The notes under the pieces: generated by a model | Seen by the model: the letters and a program-made list of their open reading frames with translations, nothing else | Told to the model about the DNA's origin: nothing | Database searches by the model: none | Virus record (IMG/VR): IMGVR_UViG_3300042868_005781 | Location: 1-36,096 of that record | Source of the DNA: a virus | DNA length: 36,096 bases | Strand: one strand, 5' to 3' | Shown: piece after piece, positions 6,614-20,414 of the stretch | Layout of the letters: each line of letters opens with the position of its first letter | Numbering within the stretch: the first letter of the stretch is position 1 | Made by a program: the position numbers and the translations under genes

Positions 6614-6822
6614 TTAAAAGGATTATTTAAATCAACCTCATTCCAAAAACCAATAACACCAAATAAAATAATTCCAACAAAAAATGCTATTGTAAGAGTC
6701 AAATAAGACAAAGGATTAAAAGGGTTCAGCCTTCTTTCTTCAACCATGTACATTTTATGACTTGGCATTATTTTTCTTAGTTGAATAACCTTTAAAAATG
6801 TTAAAATCTTAACTCTATTCAT
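6604..6822 (-). CDS. Small single-pass membrane protein between terminase genes
   Basis: The 72-aa protein has one clear membrane segment near residues 40-60 (SYLTLTIAFFVGIILFGVIG). It begins inside the end of the small terminase gene and ends inside the start of terL, so it is in the same transcript. Methionines at residues 19 and 24 are possible shorter starts. Codon use is strongly AT-rich compared with terL, suggesting an inserted accessory gene. Function unknown. Confidence 0.5.
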   Translation of the reverse strand: MNRVKILTFLKVIQLRKIMPSHKMYMVEERRLNPFNPLSYLTLTIAFFVGIILFGVIGFWNEVDLNNPFKWR

Positions 6823-7135: not shown

Positions 7136-7951
7136 TTAGTTCACATTTATTGCATCTGAATTGAGCGCAAGGGTCGGATTCGAACCGCCTATTTCAATGC
7201 TGGAAGCATCGCGTTTATCCTGATTAACTTCTTGCGCTTGTTGCCTTTCGGCTAATGTTATCTTTTCACCTTTGTACATTCCCGCACCCATTTTGTCAAT
7301 CATTGAGAATGGTAAAATAGGAACGGTAATTTTACATGATTTGTCAATTAGGTAAATGTATCTTAATTGAAATCCTTCAATTGGCTTTGCTATTGCTTTT
7401 ATTTGATTCCAAATGTTTGACGCCATATTAATATTATAGGCATGACATATTTTTTTCACTTGAGGGTCTTTGTAGTCATTTCTAAAAACTATATCCGCAA
7501 CAACTTCTCTATTAGGAAAAATCATCATTGTTTTATTAACCTTTATTCCAGTCAGATAAAACGAAGCTGCCCTATAATTGCACCCATCACCGCATTGTGT
7601 AGCATCTGAATAACTTAAAATCCACTTTACATGAGGTGCGTTTTTTTTAATTAGTTTAATTGAAATGGCCAAGCATCTACTTTCTGAATTTTTAGGCAAA
7701 TAATCATCAAAAGCCATTCTGTTTAATTCAACATATCCATTCCATGCGCTGGGAGTTACTAAAGTGTATGTTTTAGCTTTTACCATGCTATGACCATACT
7801 GCATAACTCCATGTAGCTTTCCGTCTAAAAAACAGCCAAAATGCAAAACGCTATAAGGAACAACCTTACCAGAATAATGATGCTTTTTTACAAACTCATT
7901 AGCCAACTTTGACGGTATCACCTTGACGATTATTTCCTTTGCTCTGCCCAT
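7136..7951 (-). CDS. Mom-like DNA adenine modification protein (GNAT-like)
   Basis: This 271-aa protein resembles phage Mu Mom, which converts DNA adenines to a methylcarbamoyl-type modified base and so protects against restriction. Visible family features are KKHHYSGKVV near residue 20, FGCFLDGKLHGVMQYGHS, LNRMAFDDYLPKNSESRCLA and WILSYSDATQCGDGCNYRAA. Mu Mom is 241 aa, so the length is similar, with a C-terminal extension here. The gene starts within the 3' end of a ParB-like gene (22-base overlap), a pairing I have often seen for phage Mom homologs. Codon use is more AT-rich than its neighbours. Substrate and target site are unknown. Confidence 0.75.
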   Translation of the reverse strand: MGRAKEIIVKVIPSKLANEFVKKHHYSGKVVPYSVLHFGCFLDGKLHGVMQYGHSMVKAKTYTLVTPSAWNGYVELNRMAFDDYLPKNSESRCLAISIKLIKKNAPHVKWILSYSDATQCGDGCNYRAASFYLTGIKVNKTMMIFPNREVVADIVFRNDYKDPQVKKICHAYNINMASNIWNQIKAIAKPIEGFQLRYIYLIDKSCKITVPILPFSMIDKMGAGMYKGEKITLAERQQAQEVNQDKRDASSIEIGGSNPTLALNSDAINVN

Positions 7952-8517
7952 TTGCTTACAATTAAATACAAAGCATTCCCGTTGCTATTTTCGTTTCCCA
8001 TTGTCTCAATGTACTTATATTCCTCCGTGTGCTTTATATCGCTTATTGCGTTCTGTATAACCGTTGCCTGTTCATCGGCTAAAGTAAATGTCATTTGCTG
8101 AAAAGGTGCTTTATCGCCCTCAGGCAAAGTAAAATCTTCGTCAAAATCTTCGGGTCTGTCAAACTGCGGTATCTCCAAGCCCCATGCCTCCAAGTCCACC
8201 ACCTCCCAATCATTCGCCAACGTGTCCCAGTCCCAGCCTCCCGTGTTTGCGTTTAATCGAATATTCAATTCCTTTTCGTCTGCCTCATTCAAATCAACAA
8301 TGACACATTCAATTTCCTTGATGCCAAGTTTCTTTAATTCACGGACACGGAAGTGACCGCCGACAATGTAGCCCGTTTGCTTATTGAAAATAATCGGTTC
8401 AACCATGCCAAACTTTTCAAGGCTCTCCTTCAAATGCTTTTCCTGCTTTGCCGTGCTTTGCCGTGGATTGTACGGAGCTGGGATTAAATCGGCGATTTGC
8501 TTTTTTTCAATTATCAT
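7930..8517 (-). CDS. ParB/sulfiredoxin-fold protein
   Basis: The 195-aa protein has an N-terminal ParB-like domain: IADLIPAPYNPRQ near residues 8-20, then GYIVGGHFRVRELKKLGI at about 49-66, which contains the GGHxR motif of this fold. The C-terminal half is acidic and unassigned. Phage ParB-fold proteins of this kind are usually found next to DNA-modifying enzymes and may guide or support them. Here it is coupled to the Mom-like gene. It is not a partition protein in any evident way: there is no ParA. Confidence 0.8.
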   Translation of the reverse strand: MIIEKKQIADLIPAPYNPRQSTAKQEKHLKESLEKFGMVEPIIFNKQTGYIVGGHFRVRELKKLGIKEIECVIVDLNEADEKELNIRLNANTGGWDWDTLANDWEVVDLEAWGLEIPQFDRPEDFDEDFTLPEGDKAPFQQMTFTLADEQATVIQNAISDIKHTEEYKYIETMGNENSNGNALYLIVSKWAEQRK

Positions 8518-8816
8518 GCCTCCCTGCTTTTTAAAAACATTTGGTAAAGTTCGCTCAATTCTCTTTGTTCATCGGCGGGCTTTTGCCATTTGCCGTTGAG
8601 GTAATTTAAAATATATTTTTCCTTTACAAGCCATTGGGAAAACTCTTCCATGATTTCCATTTCCCTAATCTTCGCCTCCTTAAATATGTTTTTCAAAAAT
8701 ATGCCTTCCAGACTTTCATTAATTTGTAAAAAAGTTTTTTTAGCAAGGTTGTAATCCTTTTCGGTTAATTCATTCTTTAACCAATCGATAGGCGTTTGTT
8801 TTACATTTCCTTTCAT
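8514..8816 (-). CDS. Unknown helical protein, KQTxxxWL family
   Basis: The 100-aa protein begins MKGNVKQTPIDWLKNELTEK and contains NIFKEAKIREMEIMEEFSQW. This arrangement (KQT-x-WL start, then an AKxxEME helix) resembles the plus-strand 72-aa gene at 19424-19642 (KQTAVEWL, KAKEMEKEQIIDAF) and the start of 5036-5377. It overlaps the ParB-like gene as ATGA and the glycosyltransferase gene as ATGA. No function known. Confidence 0.6.
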   Translation of the reverse strand: MKGNVKQTPIDWLKNELTEKDYNLAKKTFLQINESLEGIFLKNIFKEAKIREMEIMEEFSQWLVKEKYILNYLNGKWQKPADEQRELSELYQMFLKSREA

Positions 8817-9817
8817 ATTCCTTTTAACACTTGTTTACGTTTGTTGTTGACGGTGAGCAAATTTCGCTCAGTCAAAAGCCATTTCCTGCCTGCCTGCAAA
8901 TGATTAAAATAATCCCCATCCTTTGCCAACGCCTTTTCAAATTGATAATACAAATCGTCCGAACCCTCGTACAACCGAACGCCTGGGACATTGAACTCGG
9001 TTATTTCCTTTGGTGCATAAGGAACGCAACCTGTAACAAGCATCTCCATGGCAAAGTTATTCGACTTGCTTTGATTGAAATTGTCATTTGTCAACGGGAA
9101 CACGGCGTAATGAGCCGCACTGTTTTTGATTAACTCGAAATATTGAAATAAGGAATTGTTCCACGGTATGACCTTGACATTCGGATACAATGTTTTTCCC
9201 AACCACTCAGGGATTCCAATGAATGCAACCTCCGTGTCCTTGCGGCTGCTGACATAATGCCAAAATGTATCCACGGTTTTTAAGTCCTCAATGTGCGTCA
9301 TGCTTCCACGCCACAACACGCGTTTTACCTTTGCCTCCAGCTTATCAGGTGACACGGGGCAAAGTGGCGTTACATGAAAGTCAATGGCGTTGGGGATAAC
9401 CATTATTTTACTTTCGTCAAAGAATTGCTTGTAAAACTCTTTGAGAAAGGGCGTTGATACAATGATATAATCCGCATACTTGAAAGCCTTTTCAACCGAT
9501 TCCTTTACCTGTGTTTTACCAAAATGTGCCGACGCTGGATTCGCGGCGTTGACCTCATGCAATAAATCGTCGTGGTCAAGAATGATCTTCTTTCCCATCT
9601 TCTTTGCCTCCGCGATCATGGATAACATCCCGTCGCCGTTGGGGCGTTGAAAAAGAATAACGTCAACGTCGTAAAAATCGTACCATTTGACTGTCTCGGG
9701 ATTCAAATACGTAATGGTTAAATTTACCATTTGTGAGCGAAGCCGCATGAATGGATTAACCGAACGATAGTAATCAGTTGTGGGGCTGGTTAAATTGGTT
9801 ACAATGCCTAACCTCAT
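8813..9817 (-). CDS. Glycosyltransferase, GT-B fold, family 4-like
   Basis: The 334-aa protein has the two-domain layout of GT-B glycosyltransferases. The N-terminal domain ends around KKIILDHDDLLHEV, followed by ADYIIVSTPFLKEFY and VIPNAIDF; the C-terminal domain contains VKRVLWRGSMTHIEDL, FPLTNDNFNQSKSNNFAMEM and VTGCVPYAP. The acceptor could be a virion protein, the host envelope or modified DNA. The gene sits in the same minus-strand operon as the Mom-like and ParB-like genes and the terminase, so a phage DNA or capsid substrate is plausible but unproven. It overlaps both neighbours. Confidence 0.8.
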   Translation of the reverse strand: MRLGIVTNLTSPTTDYYRSVNPFMRLRSQMVNLTITYLNPETVKWYDFYDVDVILFQRPNGDGMLSMIAEAKKMGKKIILDHDDLLHEVNAANPASAHFGKTQVKESVEKAFKYADYIIVSTPFLKEFYKQFFDESKIMVIPNAIDFHVTPLCPVSPDKLEAKVKRVLWRGSMTHIEDLKTVDTFWHYVSSRKDTEVAFIGIPEWLGKTLYPNVKVIPWNNSLFQYFELIKNSAAHYAVFPLTNDNFNQSKSNNFAMEMLVTGCVPYAPKEITEFNVPGVRLYEGSDDLYYQFEKALAKDGDYFNHLQAGRKWLLTERNLLTVNNKRKQVLKGI

Positions 9818-10970: not shown

Positions 10971-11060
10971 AACAAGGTGGCGGAATTGGTAGACGCTATA
11001 CATAAGCAGTTGAAGCTGGGTAATTCAACATTGCAGGTTCGATTCCCGCCCTTGTTGCCA
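10971..11060 (+). tRNA. tRNA-Leu-like element with degenerate anticodon arm
   Basis: The acceptor stem AACAAGG (10971-10977) pairs perfectly with CCTTGTT (11050-11056), followed by G and an encoded CCA (11058-11060). The D arm GCG/CGC with GAATTGGTAGA is that of tRNA-Leu. The T arm has a normal TTCGATT loop and a stem with one A-C mismatch. A long variable arm fits class II. No good 5-bp anticodon stem exists: the best fold gives three pairs and an AAG anticodon with C37. A competing 6-bp hairpin GTTGAA/TTCAAC occupies this region. It may be a decaying tRNA or a tRNA mimic. Confidence 0.65.
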
Positions 11061-12209: not shown

Positions 12210-12218
12210 TATATTTAC
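12210..12218 (+). promoter_or_regulatory. Candidate -7 box before structured leader 1
   Basis: TATATTTAC resembles TAnnTTTG with A in place of G. The same string occurs at 15613-15621, and close relatives lie in the three repeated AT-rich promoter-like segments. Hairpin 1 of the leader starts at the next base. A TTTG lies 31 bases upstream, further than usual. Confidence 0.4.
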
Positions 12219-12312
12219 ATATCCTTCGGACGGAGTGCAGCCCATTCAAAGGATATTGAAACAAACTATTTTTTTGTTTCATTTACGCCCAATAGCTGCA
12301 CCTGTTGGGCGT
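12219..12312 (+). ncRNA. Three-hairpin kissing-loop leader RNA, copy 1
   Basis: Hairpin 1 pairs ATATCCTT (12219-12226) with AAGGATAT (12249-12256). Hairpin 2 pairs GAAACAAA (12258-12265) with TTTGTTTC (12273-12280). Hairpin 3 pairs ACGCCCAA (12285-12292) with TTGGGCGT (12305-12312). Loop 1 contains GTGCAGC (12235-12241), complementary to GCTGCAC (12295-12301) in loop 3. It ends 17 bases before the ATG of the ParB-methyltransferase gene. A second copy at 14206 has the same architecture with a different sequence, which is strong evidence for a selected RNA structure. It could be a cis-acting leader or a terminated small RNA. Confidence 0.75.
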
Positions 12313-12328
12313 TCTCATTTTTATACTC

Positions 12329-13597
12329 ATGCAAATATCAAAAGAACTTGAAGTCTTGATTCCACCGTTAACAAGCGAGGAATTTAAGCAACTGGAGCGT
12401 AATATTCTGGAAGAAGGAATCCGCGACCCATTGGTGACATGGAACGGTATCTTAGTCGATGGACACAACCGTTACAGGATTGCAAAGGAATATGACATTG
12501 ACTTTGAAACCGTGGAAAAGGAATTTGCCGACATGAACGCGGTAAAGGAGTGGATGATTAACAATCAACTTGGAAGAAGGAATTTACCAGAATTTGTAAG
12601 GGGAGAACTGCTTTCTTATGTTCGCGAAATGCGCAAAATAGAAGGAAAAGAAAAACAATTACTTACTCTTAATAAAGGTAAAGAATCTCCCGTTTTGTCA
12701 AATATTGACAAAACGGAACATAATACACGAAATGAATTTGCCGAAAAACTTGGCTGGAGTACAGGTAAGACTGGAATGTTTGACGTTGTAACAAAAAAAG
12801 CACCAGAGGAATTAAAAGTAAAATTAAGAACAGGTGAAGTAAATATTCATCAAGCATACAAAGAGATAAAAAAAGATGAAAAGGAACAATATAAAACGCA
12901 AAAGGCGATTGAAATAATTGAAAAGGTTTACGAAAGCAATGCAAATATTTTCCATGGAAATTGCATTGAGTTTATTAAGACCATTGAGGACAAAAGTATT
13001 GATTGTTTAATAACCGACCCACCCTACGGAGTGGACATTCAATTTGGCGCGTATGACAATCAACTGAGCCGCAAGATTGAGAACGATGGAAACATTGACA
13101 ATGCTTTGCTTTTGCTTGATACAATGTTACATGAGGTAAAAATCAAGTTGAAAGACAATGCACACATTTACATTTTTTGCAACTGGAAAATTTACCCTCA
13201 ATTCAATGCAATTATTTCAAAGCATTTTCAAATCAAGAACCTTATAATTTGGGATAAATTATTCATGGGAATGGGTGACTTAAAAGGAAATTATTCGAGC
13301 TCTTATGAAATGATTGTTTTTGCTGGAGGTAACAGGGAATTCTTAACAAGACCCAAAAATATAATTCAATGCAGATTTAATGATGAAAGATTTCATAACA
13401 CACAAAAGCCAGTTGACTTAATTAAGCAACTCATTGAAAATAGTACCAACGTCAACGAAACAATTTTCGATCCTTTTCTTGGGAGTGGTTCAACTGTTGT
13501 TGCGGCAAATCAATTAAAAAGGAATTTCATTGGATGCGAGATTGACGAACAAAATTATAAAATAACTTTAAAAAGGCTTGAAGATGGTAAGTGTTAA
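12329..13597 (+). CDS. ParB-domain / DNA methyltransferase fusion
   Basis: The start is ATG 12329. A TTG-started frame from 12305 would begin inside hairpin 3, so I reject it. The 422-aa protein has an N-terminal ParB-like domain (GIRDPLVTWNGILVDGHNRY) and a middle helical segment containing LGWSTGKTGMFDVV. The C-terminal methyltransferase has catalytic DPPY at 230-233 and the SAM-binding FDPFLGSGST at 380-389. DPPY before FxGxG is the beta-class order, so N6-adenine or N4-cytosine methylation is expected. Fusions of a ParB domain to a methyltransferase are known in phages. It probably protects phage DNA or controls gene expression. The target sequence is unknown. Confidence 0.88.
   Translation: MQISKELEVLIPPLTSEEFKQLERNILEEGIRDPLVTWNGILVDGHNRYRIAKEYDIDFETVEKEFADMNAVKEWMINNQLGRRNLPEFVRGELLSYVREMRKIEGKEKQLLTLNKGKESPVLSNIDKTEHNTRNEFAEKLGWSTGKTGMFDVVTKKAPEELKVKLRTGEVNIHQAYKEIKKDEKEQYKTQKAIEIIEKVYESNANIFHGNCIEFIKTIEDKSIDCLITDPPYGVDIQFGAYDNQLSRKIENDGNIDNALLLLDTMLHEVKIKLKDNAHIYIFCNWKIYPQFNAIISKHFQIKNLIIWDKLFMGMGDLKGNYSSSYEMIVFAGGNREFLTRPKNIIQCRFNDERFHNTQKPVDLIKQLIENSTNVNETIFDPFLGSGSTVVAANQLKRNFIGCEIDEQNYKITLKRLEDGKC
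12690..12716 (+). repeat. 12-bp perfect inverted repeat inside the methyltransferase gene
   Basis: CCGTTTTGTCAA (12690-12701) and TTGACAAAACGG (12705-12716) are exact reverse complements separated by ATA. A 12-bp perfect match is unlikely by chance in a window of this size. It is coding sequence, so it may also reflect protein constraint. It could form an mRNA hairpin or bind a dimeric protein. Confidence 0.6.
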
Positions 13598-14177
13598 TTA
13601 TAAAGAATTTAGAAAGTATTCAGACAAAAGCCTTCCAGAGGCAAAGGAATATATCGCAAAGTTTTTAAAAGCTAAATTACAAGTTATTAAAACTGAAAAA
13701 TATATTTCAATGATTAAAGCATCAGACGTTTATAATGACACAATAAATGCTATTGATTTATTCATAGACTTGCCTTGCTACTTTCCAAAAATAAAAGTAA
13801 GTCACAGGGCGCGAAAAATGCACGGAGATATAATTGACATAACCATTAAAACAAAAAGTCAAAATCCTGAAATAAAATCTGAGTACGATAAGCTATTAAA
13901 TTTTGCATCAGGAAATACAAATCCATGGTATTATTTTTATTGTTTTTACGATGAAGATAAAGGAAATATAAGTAAATATATTATTTACGACTTACGCGTA
14001 TTAATAAAACTTCCAGAGTTTAAAGACAAATCAATTTTTGCTTATAAAGATGATAAATTTAACACTCAAGACGGAGGATCGTATTTTAATTGCATAACCG
14101 TTAAAACTTTAATTGAGAAAGGCGTTGTTGTGGCTGACTGGTCAAAAGGTGAAGGCGAAGTAAAATATTATATATAA
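13584..14177 (+). CDS. Unknown protein coupled to the methyltransferase; possible nuclease
   Basis: Starting at ATG 13584 gives 197 aa and a 14-base overlap with the methyltransferase gene. Residues around MHGDIIDITIKTK followed by a conserved-looking WYYFYCFYDEDKGN and YIIYDLRVLIKL could represent the acidic core of a PD-(D/E)XK-like fold, but the exact motif is not clear. Its position right after a methyltransferase invites the idea of a restriction partner. That is a weak inference, and I do not recognise the family. Codon use is very AT-rich. Confidence 0.6.
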   Translation: MVSVNYKEFRKYSDKSLPEAKEYIAKFLKAKLQVIKTEKYISMIKASDVYNDTINAIDLFIDLPCYFPKIKVSHRARKMHGDIIDITIKTKSQNPEIKSEYDKLLNFASGNTNPWYYFYCFYDEDKGNISKYIIYDLRVLIKLPEFKDKSIFAYKDDKFNTQDGGSYFNCITVKTLIEKGVVVADWSKGEGEVKYYI

Positions 14178-14193
14178 TTTGCCAAATATTCCT

Positions 14194-14201
14194 TATCTTT
14201 A
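14194..14201 (+). promoter_or_regulatory. Candidate -7 box before structured leader 2
   Basis: TATCTTTA matches TAnnTTT with A at the last position and lies four bases before hairpin 1 of leader 2, placing a start site near 14206. No TTTG is seen at the usual distance upstream. Confidence 0.4.
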
Positions 14202-14205
14202 ATCA

Positions 14206-14296
14206 TTCTTTTGAACGAGGTGAAGGTCATTCAAAAGAACTTCGGGACAATATCCGCATTGTTCAACTAACCCAGTACCCCTTCACGTGCTGGGTT
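14206..14296 (+). ncRNA. Three-hairpin kissing-loop leader RNA, copy 2
   Basis: Hairpin 1 pairs TTCTTTTGAA (14206-14215) with TTCAAAAGAA (14230-14239). Hairpin 2 pairs GGACAAT (14245-14251) with ATTGTTC (14258-14264), including one G-U. Hairpin 3 pairs AACCCAG (14269-14275) with CTGGGTT (14290-14296) and runs into seven Ts. Loop 1 GTGAAGG (14220-14226) is complementary to CCTTCAC (14280-14286) in loop 3. Compared with copy 1, two of the seven loop-loop pairs have changed on both sides. The ATG of the HTH replication protein is 16 bases after hairpin 3, nearly the same distance as in copy 1. The U run would allow termination or attenuation. Confidence 0.75.
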
Positions 14297-14311
14297 TTTT
14301 TATACATTTTT

Positions 14312-15328
14312 ATGAATAAGTTAAATAACAAAATTAAGGATAATTTTACCATTATCCCCAATGACATTATCCGAAACAAAAGCCTGAGCGACCGCGCCCG
14401 CTTCATCTTTTGTTACATGGCTTCCATGCCAGATGATTGGAAATTTTATCAAGGCGCAATGGCAAAGGAACTTGGATACACAAAGGATACATTGAGAAAA
14501 TACATTGAAGAACTTTTGACAACAGGTTACCTTCATCGGGAACAAAGGAGGGAAACGGGTAAATTTGATAGTTACGATTATACCCTGAATTTTACACCGA
14601 GTGGTAAAAAAGCCGACACGGTAAAAATCCGCAACGGAGAAAAACCGACACGGGAAAAGTCGGCACTAATAAATAAAGACTTGGAACAAAGAAAGATTAT
14701 AACAAATATAGACTTTGAACAAAGTATTGAAAATCCTTCAGATTTTACCGACTTTGAAAAAGTTGAAACAAATGATTTTCCAAACTTTCCAACTGTAGAA
14801 ATAAAATCTGTATCAGTTAAAACAAATCTTCAAAGCCCCAAAGTGAACCCCTTTACCGTTGTTGCTAAGTTGCAAAGTGAAAAAGAAAGAAAAATTGTTG
14901 CGACGCAAAAAGAAAGAAAAGCCGCCGCCGAGCCGAAAGCCGACCGCCAGCCCTCCCCCACGTACGCCGCCTTTACCGTGTTTTGCCAAACGTTTGAATC
15001 GTTATCTGGTGCAGCGTACCCAACTGACCAGAACGGGCATTACATCATGATGCCAAAAGATGCAGGGCAAATGAAAAACCTTATGCAATACATTGACAAA
15101 ATAGATAAGCAGGGCAATAGCATTGAGGCATTGAAGGTGTTTATCCAAGCCGCGTGGTCATTGCCTGACAAATGGTTAAAAGCAAATTTCACAATAGCCA
15201 ACCTTTACTCCCAAGCCTCAAAGATATTTACCGCATACCAAACCACAAGCCCAGCGGCAAAGGACAAGGCGTACAATGACAGGATTCAAGAATTGCTTGC
15301 CGAAAGAATGGCAAAATTTCAAGATTAA
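14312..15328 (+). CDS. Helix-turn-helix replication protein
   Basis: The 338-aa protein has an N-terminal winged-helix domain of the kind found in phage replication initiators: NFTIIPNDIIRNKSLSDRAR, YMASMPDDWKFYQGAMAKEL, GYTKDTLRKYIEELLTTGYL. The middle (residues about 110-210) is low-complexity and charged. The C-terminal domain (PTYAAFTVFCQTFESLSG onward) is helical, with WLKANFTIANLYSQ near the end, as in DnaD- or O-like replication proteins. It most likely binds an origin and recruits a helicase loader; the 244-aa gene downstream is a candidate partner. It is preceded by leader RNA copy 2. Confidence 0.7.
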   Translation: MNKLNNKIKDNFTIIPNDIIRNKSLSDRARFIFCYMASMPDDWKFYQGAMAKELGYTKDTLRKYIEELLTTGYLHREQRRETGKFDSYDYTLNFTPSGKKADTVKIRNGEKPTREKSALINKDLEQRKIITNIDFEQSIENPSDFTDFEKVETNDFPNFPTVEIKSVSVKTNLQSPKVNPFTVVAKLQSEKERKIVATQKERKAAAEPKADRQPSPTYAAFTVFCQTFESLSGAAYPTDQNGHYIMMPKDAGQMKNLMQYIDKIDKQGNSIEALKVFIQAAWSLPDKWLKANFTIANLYSQASKIFTAYQTTSPAAKDKAYNDRIQELLAERMAKFQD

Positions 15329-19874: not shown

Positions 19875-20414
19875 ATGATTTTAACCGACAAAACCATTAT
19901 TGACGAAATCGCCGAAGGTAACATCGTTATTGAGCCTTTCAATCCTGATAACTTAGGAACAAATAGCTACGACCTTACTTTGTCAAACACCTTGGTACTT
20001 TACACGGAGCGCGTATTGGATGTTCGCAAGAAAAACCCCTCCGCACCAATGATTATTCCTGATGAAGGATTGATTTTGCAACCTGGCATTGTTTACCTTG
20101 CTTCCACGGTGGAATACACGGAGACCATAAAACACGTGCCAATTATCCAGGGCAAAAGTTCTTTAGGGAGGCTTGGTTTATTTGTCCACGTGACCGCAGG
20201 ATTTGGCGACGTTGGATTCAAAGGACATTGGACGTTGGAGCTTTTGACGGTTCAACCGCTCAAGATTTACGCGGGAATGAAAATTGCCCAGCTGACCTAT
20301 CAGGACATAAGCGAGATGCCAAATATTTCGTATGATAAAAAGCAAGATGCCAAGTATTCGAATCAGGGGAAAGATCCTGTTGCCTCAAAAAATTATTTAA
20401 ACAAGCAGCCATGA
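19875..20414 (+). CDS. dcd: dCTP deaminase
   Basis: The 179-aa protein matches dCTP deaminase: GTNSYDLTLSNTLVLY (28-43), QGKSSLGRLGLFVHVTAGFG (92-111) and GFKGHWTLELLTV, where E122 in TLEL corresponds to the catalytic glutamate of the Dcd/dUTPase family. The C-terminal motif AGMKIAQLTY is also standard. It deaminates dCTP to dUTP, feeding dTTP synthesis. Length is close to the usual 190 aa. It follows the nucleotide hydrolase and overlaps the next start as ATGA. Confidence 0.9.
   Translation: MILTDKTIIDEIAEGNIVIEPFNPDNLGTNSYDLTLSNTLVLYTERVLDVRKKNPSAPMIIPDEGLILQPGIVYLASTVEYTETIKHVPIIQGKSSLGRLGLFVHVTAGFGDVGFKGHWTLELLTVQPLKIYAGMKIAQLTYQDISEMPNISYDKKQDAKYSNQGKDPVASKNYLNKQP

Follow-up and report, generated by a model that had tools for sequence, protein, structure and literature searches.

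Kissing-loop leader RNAs ahead of replication and other early genes in Bacteroidota phages, candidate mobile transcription attenuators

In the copy-control systems of ColE1, pT181 and IncI/IncB, loop-loop pairing takes place in the leader of a replication gene and involves a counter-transcribed RNA, with attenuation in the case of pT181. The CI RNA of P4 and the c4 antisense RNA of P1 likewise belong to the leaders of phage replication or early operons, where short complementary segments are used and termination is the effector. The put RNAs of HK022 are cis-acting antitermination leaders that are not known to have an internal terminator or a loop-loop contact ("kiss"). Finally, the PeSLs of T4-like phages, a name associated with Arbiol 2010 and Comeau 2014, are said to be mobile intergenic units in which an early-type promoter and a stem-loop or terminator stand ahead of shuffled genes; we know of no kiss in any of them. 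The leaders described here share with the plasmid copy-control systems a loop-loop pairing located ahead of a replication gene.

The DNA analysed, hereafter the window, has 36,096 nt and makes up a complete IMG/VR record, an uncultured phage contig. It carries the genome of a tailed phage, in which genes for terminase, portal, head-maturation protease and endolysin are accompanied by a plus-strand replication module. No integrase or repressor was found among the window proteins scanned, which did not cover every ORF. The two leaders and the genes behind them are composed as follows.

12210..12217, plus strand: putative promoter -7 box of copy 1, TATATTTA, of the Bacteroidota TAnnTTTG type (box conserved in 85 distinct relatives)
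12219..12256, plus strand: hairpin 1 of copy 1, its loop carrying the kiss GTGCAGC at 12235-12241 (folding, covariance model, covariation)
12257..12281, plus strand: hairpin 2 of copy 1, TGAAACAAA / TTTGTTTCA (folding; linker folding in relatives)
12285..12312, plus strand: hairpin 3 of copy 1, its loop carrying the kiss partner GCTGCAC at 12295-12301, followed by an imperfect U-tract, TTCTCATTTTT
12329..13597, plus strand: gene behind copy 1, a ParB-like / N6-N4 DNA methyltransferase fusion of 422 aa (Pfam PF01555, PHROG 67, ParB-like PHROG 4715)
14194..14201, plus strand: putative promoter -7 box of copy 2, TATCTTTA (box conserved in relatives)
14206..14239, plus strand: hairpin 1 of copy 2, its loop carrying the kiss GTGAAGG at 14220-14226 (folding, covariance model, covariation)
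14245..14264, plus strand: hairpin 2 of copy 2, GGACAAT / ATTGTTC (folding; linker folding in relatives)
14269..14303, plus strand: hairpin 3 of copy 2 (14269-14296, kiss partner CCTTCAC at 14280-14286) with its U-tract, resembling an intrinsic terminator
14312..15328, plus strand: gene behind copy 2, an HTH replication-initiation-like protein of 338 aa (PF13730; PHROG 428 / 270 / 4221, "replication initiation protein")

Several other features of this genome were recorded. The first-ranked full-length matches of the ParB-methyltransferase in the phages collection were archaeal Methanoculleus viruses (32% over 99%), and its coding sequence contains, at 12690-12716 between the ParB-like and methyltransferase parts, a near-perfect inverted repeat (CCGTTTTGTCAA..TTGACAAAACGG). 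Genes for a Mom-like DNA modification protein, a ParB-like protein and a glycosyltransferase form a cluster at 7136-9817, and a dCTP deaminase-like gene lies at 19875-20414; with this gene content the DNA of the window phage may be modified. Two tRNAs are predicted: tRNA-Gly at 7163-7237, within the Mom-like gene and sharing its strand, and tRNA-Leu(AAG) at 10971-11060, directly ahead of the replication module.

The initial annotation, made from the window alone, had described three hairpins in each intergenic segment, and both fold more stably than dinucleotide shuffles (z -5.7 for copy 1 and -3.9 for copy 2). The 7-mers of loops 1 and 3 are perfectly complementary in both copies, as it had read them, a match whose chance we estimate at about 5e-4 per element; the common motif CATTCAAA is present in both, hairpin 3 ends 16-17 nt ahead of the ATGs at 12329 and 14312, and copy 2 does end in a U run. 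Overlooked at that stage was the promoter box found a few nucleotides upstream of stem 1 in both copies. The further claim of covariation within one genome had been inferred from two copies; the real evidence comes from 85 distinct relatives, in which all seven kiss pairs have changed on both sides and pairing is 100%. No other copy exists in the window according to the covariance model R1.

R1 was built from 39 such elements in relatives, the IMG/VR homologues of both window proteins having the same element in the same place. Searched against the window and 96 related loci, it returned 104 plus-strand matches above 62 bits (85 distinct RNAs), which a clear gap separated from the opposite-strand matches, self-overlapping artefacts below 40 bits. 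Another 24 elements came from further contigs through a pattern scan of viral contigs that made no use of the proteins, and whole-contig searches found one or two elements, never more, in 45 of 50 phage contigs. An empty covariance search, a lack of covarying pairs, or homologous phages keeping neither kiss nor hairpins would have refuted the initial annotation; each of these conditions was checked, and none applied. The kissing-loop leaders are real, and larger in extent than had been thought. Outside phages, six pattern matches in GTDB contigs all failed R1, and searches of 395 sampled genomes of one class with R1, R2 and R3 gave two weak matches and no true copy. Both weak matches were rejected: L380 matches R1 but lacks the kiss, and L381 looks like a plain terminator. 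A search for DNA similarity to copy 1 in cultured phages gave nothing real.

The structure was quantified on an alignment of 90 rows (A4), 85 of them distinct. Every one of the 591 kiss cells in the distinct sequences is Watson-Crick, without a single G-U pair or mismatch, and none of the seven kiss pairs shows a one-sided change. Because 19 distinct kiss 7-mers occur, at least 18 transitions must have preserved complementarity on any tree. Pairs altered on both sides number 8 of 10 in stem 1 and 9 of 10 in stem 3, with Watson-Crick, G-U and mismatch counts of 782/44/21 and 699/53/10, respectively. Over the whole structure the covariation score reached 0.662; shuffles scored 0.214, and slid partners no more than 0.133. 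Sliding the partners by 1-3 columns lowered pairing over all helices from 98.6% to 49% or less. When all column pairs of A4 were scanned, stem 1, stem 3 and the kiss ranked top and were mutually compatible, and no mutually exclusive (antiterminator) helix was found among the top covarying pairs. The middle hairpin varies in sequence, the linker nevertheless reaching -3 kcal/mol or lower in 85/85 elements against 56% of shuffles. By entropy the kiss is more variable than stem 1, and its energy is not correlated with that of hairpin 3 (r 0.01). The leader folds as one locked unit of about 95-100 nt, and, as loop-loop covariations go, its kiss is among the cleanest to be hoped for.

A TAnnTTT[AG] box lies upstream of hairpin 1 in 85/85 distinct elements, exactly 4-5 nt ahead of stem 1 in 79; we take TAnnTTTG to be the Bacteroidota -7 promoter box, and from its position infer that the RNA starts at the foot of stem 1 or close to it. 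Stem 3 is followed by at least five T in the next eight bases, again in 85/85, and the ATG mostly comes 13-16 nt after stem 3. Promoter box, leader, G+C-rich hairpin with U-tract and gene follow one another on the same strand, the layout expected of an attenuator. The strand bias, the promoter and the U-tract argue for an RNA rather than a DNA structure. One alternative is that the kiss-locked 5' hairpin protects the mRNA by blocking 5'-end-dependent decay, the U-rich tail being an unstructured ribosome entry and hairpin 3 a poor terminator. The probable start of the RNA at stem 1 suits such a role, whereas a U-tract directly after stem 3 in every element is the signature of a terminator, and a lone 5' hairpin would protect without any terminator loop; we consider this quite improbable.

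The leaders are not tied to one gene. Ten clusters of unrelated proteins stand behind them, among them ParB-methyltransferase, HTH/replication, HNH-like, zinc-finger-like, DUF3102-like and HNH-helicase proteins (names beyond the first two were read off the sequences only), and one and the same kiss sequence is found ahead of different genes. Copy 1 of the window is 100% identical to an element ahead of an unrelated HNH-like gene in L063/L064, while elements 97-99% identical to each other precede replication proteins only 62-65% identical; the element therefore moves separately from the genes. Unrelated genes behind leaders (L012, L016, L005 and others) often begin with ATGCAAATATTA (MQIL..), so that the exchanged cassette may reach a few codons into the gene.

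This mobility bears on two further explanations. The first is that promoter and stem-loops, repeated between genes, serve as a PeSL-like recombination cassette by which phages shuffle genes, as could be supposed from the same element before unrelated genes and from near-identical ones before replication genes 63% identical. Recombination would, however, favour one constant sequence, and the two-sided matching of 591/591 kiss cells would be left unexplained; we find it barely credible. The second is that a terminated small RNA of about 100 nt is itself the product, made nuclease-resistant by the 5' hairpin and the kiss and acting in trans on phage or host targets, with the gene behind expressed by leak-through. 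An own promoter, an own terminator, a locked fold whose 5' end sits in a stem and 100% identical elements ahead of unrelated genes all fit this proposal. A trans-acting RNA would nevertheless have no need of a tight, conserved ATG spacing before ten gene families, and the most exposed parts, the loops, pair with each other and vary freely, leaving no conserved seed. On balance we hold it to be unlikely.

We favour a cis-acting transcription attenuator that limits or times the expression of replication and other early genes, and we rate this proposal about as probable as all else together; termination is inferred, in the absence of transcript data. Hairpin 3 is separated from the ATG by only about 13-16 nt, so that a transcript of the ParB-methyltransferase or replication gene must in every case cross this hairpin. 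Wherever a promoter might lie, hairpin 3 stands between it and the ATG, the gene can be expressed only by read-through, and cis attenuation is the simplest reading. Each segment would be a self-contained mobile leader cassette, in which a promoter of host type, judged by the position of the box, would initiate the RNA at the base of hairpin 1 or nearby, and hairpin 3 and the U-tract would form an intrinsic terminator at which RNA polymerase stops. A strict Watson-Crick kiss of 7-9 bp, shown by covariation, ties the loop of hairpin 3 to that of hairpin 1. The kiss may set the folding or the efficiency of the terminator, both its effect on termination and the direction of that effect being inferred. 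Stem 1, stem 3 and the kiss covary in the same molecules without an exclusive helix, unlike in a classical two-state attenuator, and because they coexist the kiss is more likely to tune or lock terminator folding than to compete with it. The lack of an exclusive helix counts against the attenuator, as does the coexistence, what a kiss contributes to a terminator hairpin that is strong in itself being unexplained; so do the uncorrelated energies of kiss and hairpin 3 and the imperfect U-tract of copy 1. The initial annotation had offered attenuation or a terminated small RNA as inference only, and rightly so. The conserved promoter box, U-tract and ATG spacing make attenuation the leading reading without proving it; structure, kiss, box, U-tract, spacing, mobility and spread across phage groups are themselves established.

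A different use of the kiss, RNA-based immunity or copy control, would have the terminated leader pair loop-to-loop in trans with a leader still being transcribed from a like genome and force its termination, after the manner of P4 CI or P1 c4 RNA or of plasmid antisense attenuation, kiss diversity then defining specificity groups. The leaders do lie ahead of replication genes, their kiss varies more than stem 1, and complementary loops could in principle pair in trans. None of 19 genomes has the same kiss in both leaders, but these make only 15 distinct combinations with a 7.9% chance each, and Hamming distances between the two kisses of a genome do not exceed those of a permutation, one pair differing by a single base; orthogonality of the two kisses in one genome thus has no statistical support. 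An antisense promoter (TAnnTTTG on the opposite strand) was found in 3/85 elements, not above the 14/248 of background windows, and the bacterial genomes searched yielded no true copy. Moreover, like leaders are present in Muminvirus tooticki, and Muminvirus is reported as lytic (PMC7077304). We therefore give such a role of the kiss very little credence.

More distant relatives have different leaders of the same plan at equivalent sites, and two independent architectures keeping this plan, classes II and III, speak for the attenuator. Class II consists of two hairpins with an 8-nt kiss adjoining ATTATA, its covarying kisses taking the forms CGTCTAAC, CGTCTGAC, GGTCTAAC, GGTCTCAC, CATCTCAC and CATCCTAC besides a TCTTCAC group. 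Class III has a TAGCT/AGCTA hairpin and the kisses CTTCGAC, CATCGAC, TATCGAC, CATCCAC, CATGCAC and CAACGAC; six of its seven kiss pairs have changed on both sides, the sole unpaired row being misaligned. Other leader forms occur in L107, L116, L125 and L142. Classes II and III look related: R3 gives a weak match with a class II element, and L125 is matched by R2. A generic descriptor applied to 130 loci gave 89 gene-strand matches, versus none with a reversed kiss, three with a complement kiss and one on the opposite strand. One class II phage contig (L118) has a third leader at 6653-6751, ahead of an HNH-like gene, of the tooticki site type and with the covarying kiss GTTACGG.

Leaders of like anatomy in cultured phages lie ahead of replication or HNH genes.

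Flavobacterium phages tooticki9-1 and hemulen6-1: two leaders each, kisses GTCGTCG and GTGAGACG
Elemoviruses B, C and D: leader kiss TGAGAGC
Olleya phage Harreka_1: leader kiss GTGGTGG, with an ATGGTGG relative in L315
Cellulophaga phages phi19:3 and phi13:2: leader kiss CTCTCACAA, hairpin 1 weaker

When single cultured phages were scanned genome by genome, the descriptor gave 7 matches versus 3-4 in controls, a noticeable rate of chance hits. As evidence, the single cases therefore fall short of the three classes, and they also lean on their intergenic position and complete anatomy. Riemerella phage CRP19 has no such leader at the equivalent gene. The presence of like leaders in cultured Flavobacterium, Olleya and Cellulophaga phages makes the role of the kiss in termination directly testable.

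The initial annotation had recognised no named RNA family, and this remains so: at the gathering threshold of Rfam 15 only tRNAs pass, in the window and 11 related loci, and at a permissive threshold the best sub-threshold matches at the leaders are at chance level. Literature searches found no description of such leaders, and kissing-loop leaders of Bacteroidota phages appear never to have been described before. To our knowledge nothing else has a strict, freely evolving kiss that joins a 5' hairpin to a terminator. The leaders make up a large undescribed superfamily of structured RNAs with at least three architectures, in phages of a major phylum whose gene regulation is poorly known.

Compared with P4 CI and P1 c4 RNAs, the leaders show no match to the Rfam c4 family (RF01695), their complementarity is a loop-loop pairing within one compact leader with its own terminator, and they occur in a phage reported as lytic, without evidence of action in trans. 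From ColE1, pT181 and IncI/IncB they differ in having both kiss partners on the same RNA and no antisense promoter that we could find. Like the put RNAs of HK022 they are phage leader RNAs that adjoin an early promoter and could act on RNA polymerase, but they possess an internal terminator and a kiss. Riboswitch-type attenuators with kissing loops, such as the purine and guanidine-II ones, likewise combine a loop-loop contact with a leader that ends in a terminator, whereas our leaders lack an Rfam match, a conserved unpaired core suited to a ligand and a conserved alternative helix. As for PeSL (promoter-early-stem-loop) cassettes of T4-like phages, cited in PMC4503421, the likeness lies in a mobile promoter and stem-loop between shuffled genes, with identical elements before unrelated genes; the leaders differ from them by two or three hairpins, by a covarying loop-loop kiss and by their occurrence in unrelated Bacteroidota phages. 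It is a tentative possibility, which we would sooner doubt than assert, that a new regulatory principle operates across Bacteroidota phages, in which the loop of a 5' hairpin matches and thereby addresses that of the terminator, with freely evolving, strictly Watson-Crick addresses, in interchangeable promoter-attenuator cassettes for early genes, possibly with a phage- or host-encoded protein binding the kissing complex or with trans pairing between genomes. The leaders resemble attenuators in function and PeSLs in mobility, and there is a fair chance that such mobile promoter-attenuator leaders represent a new principle.
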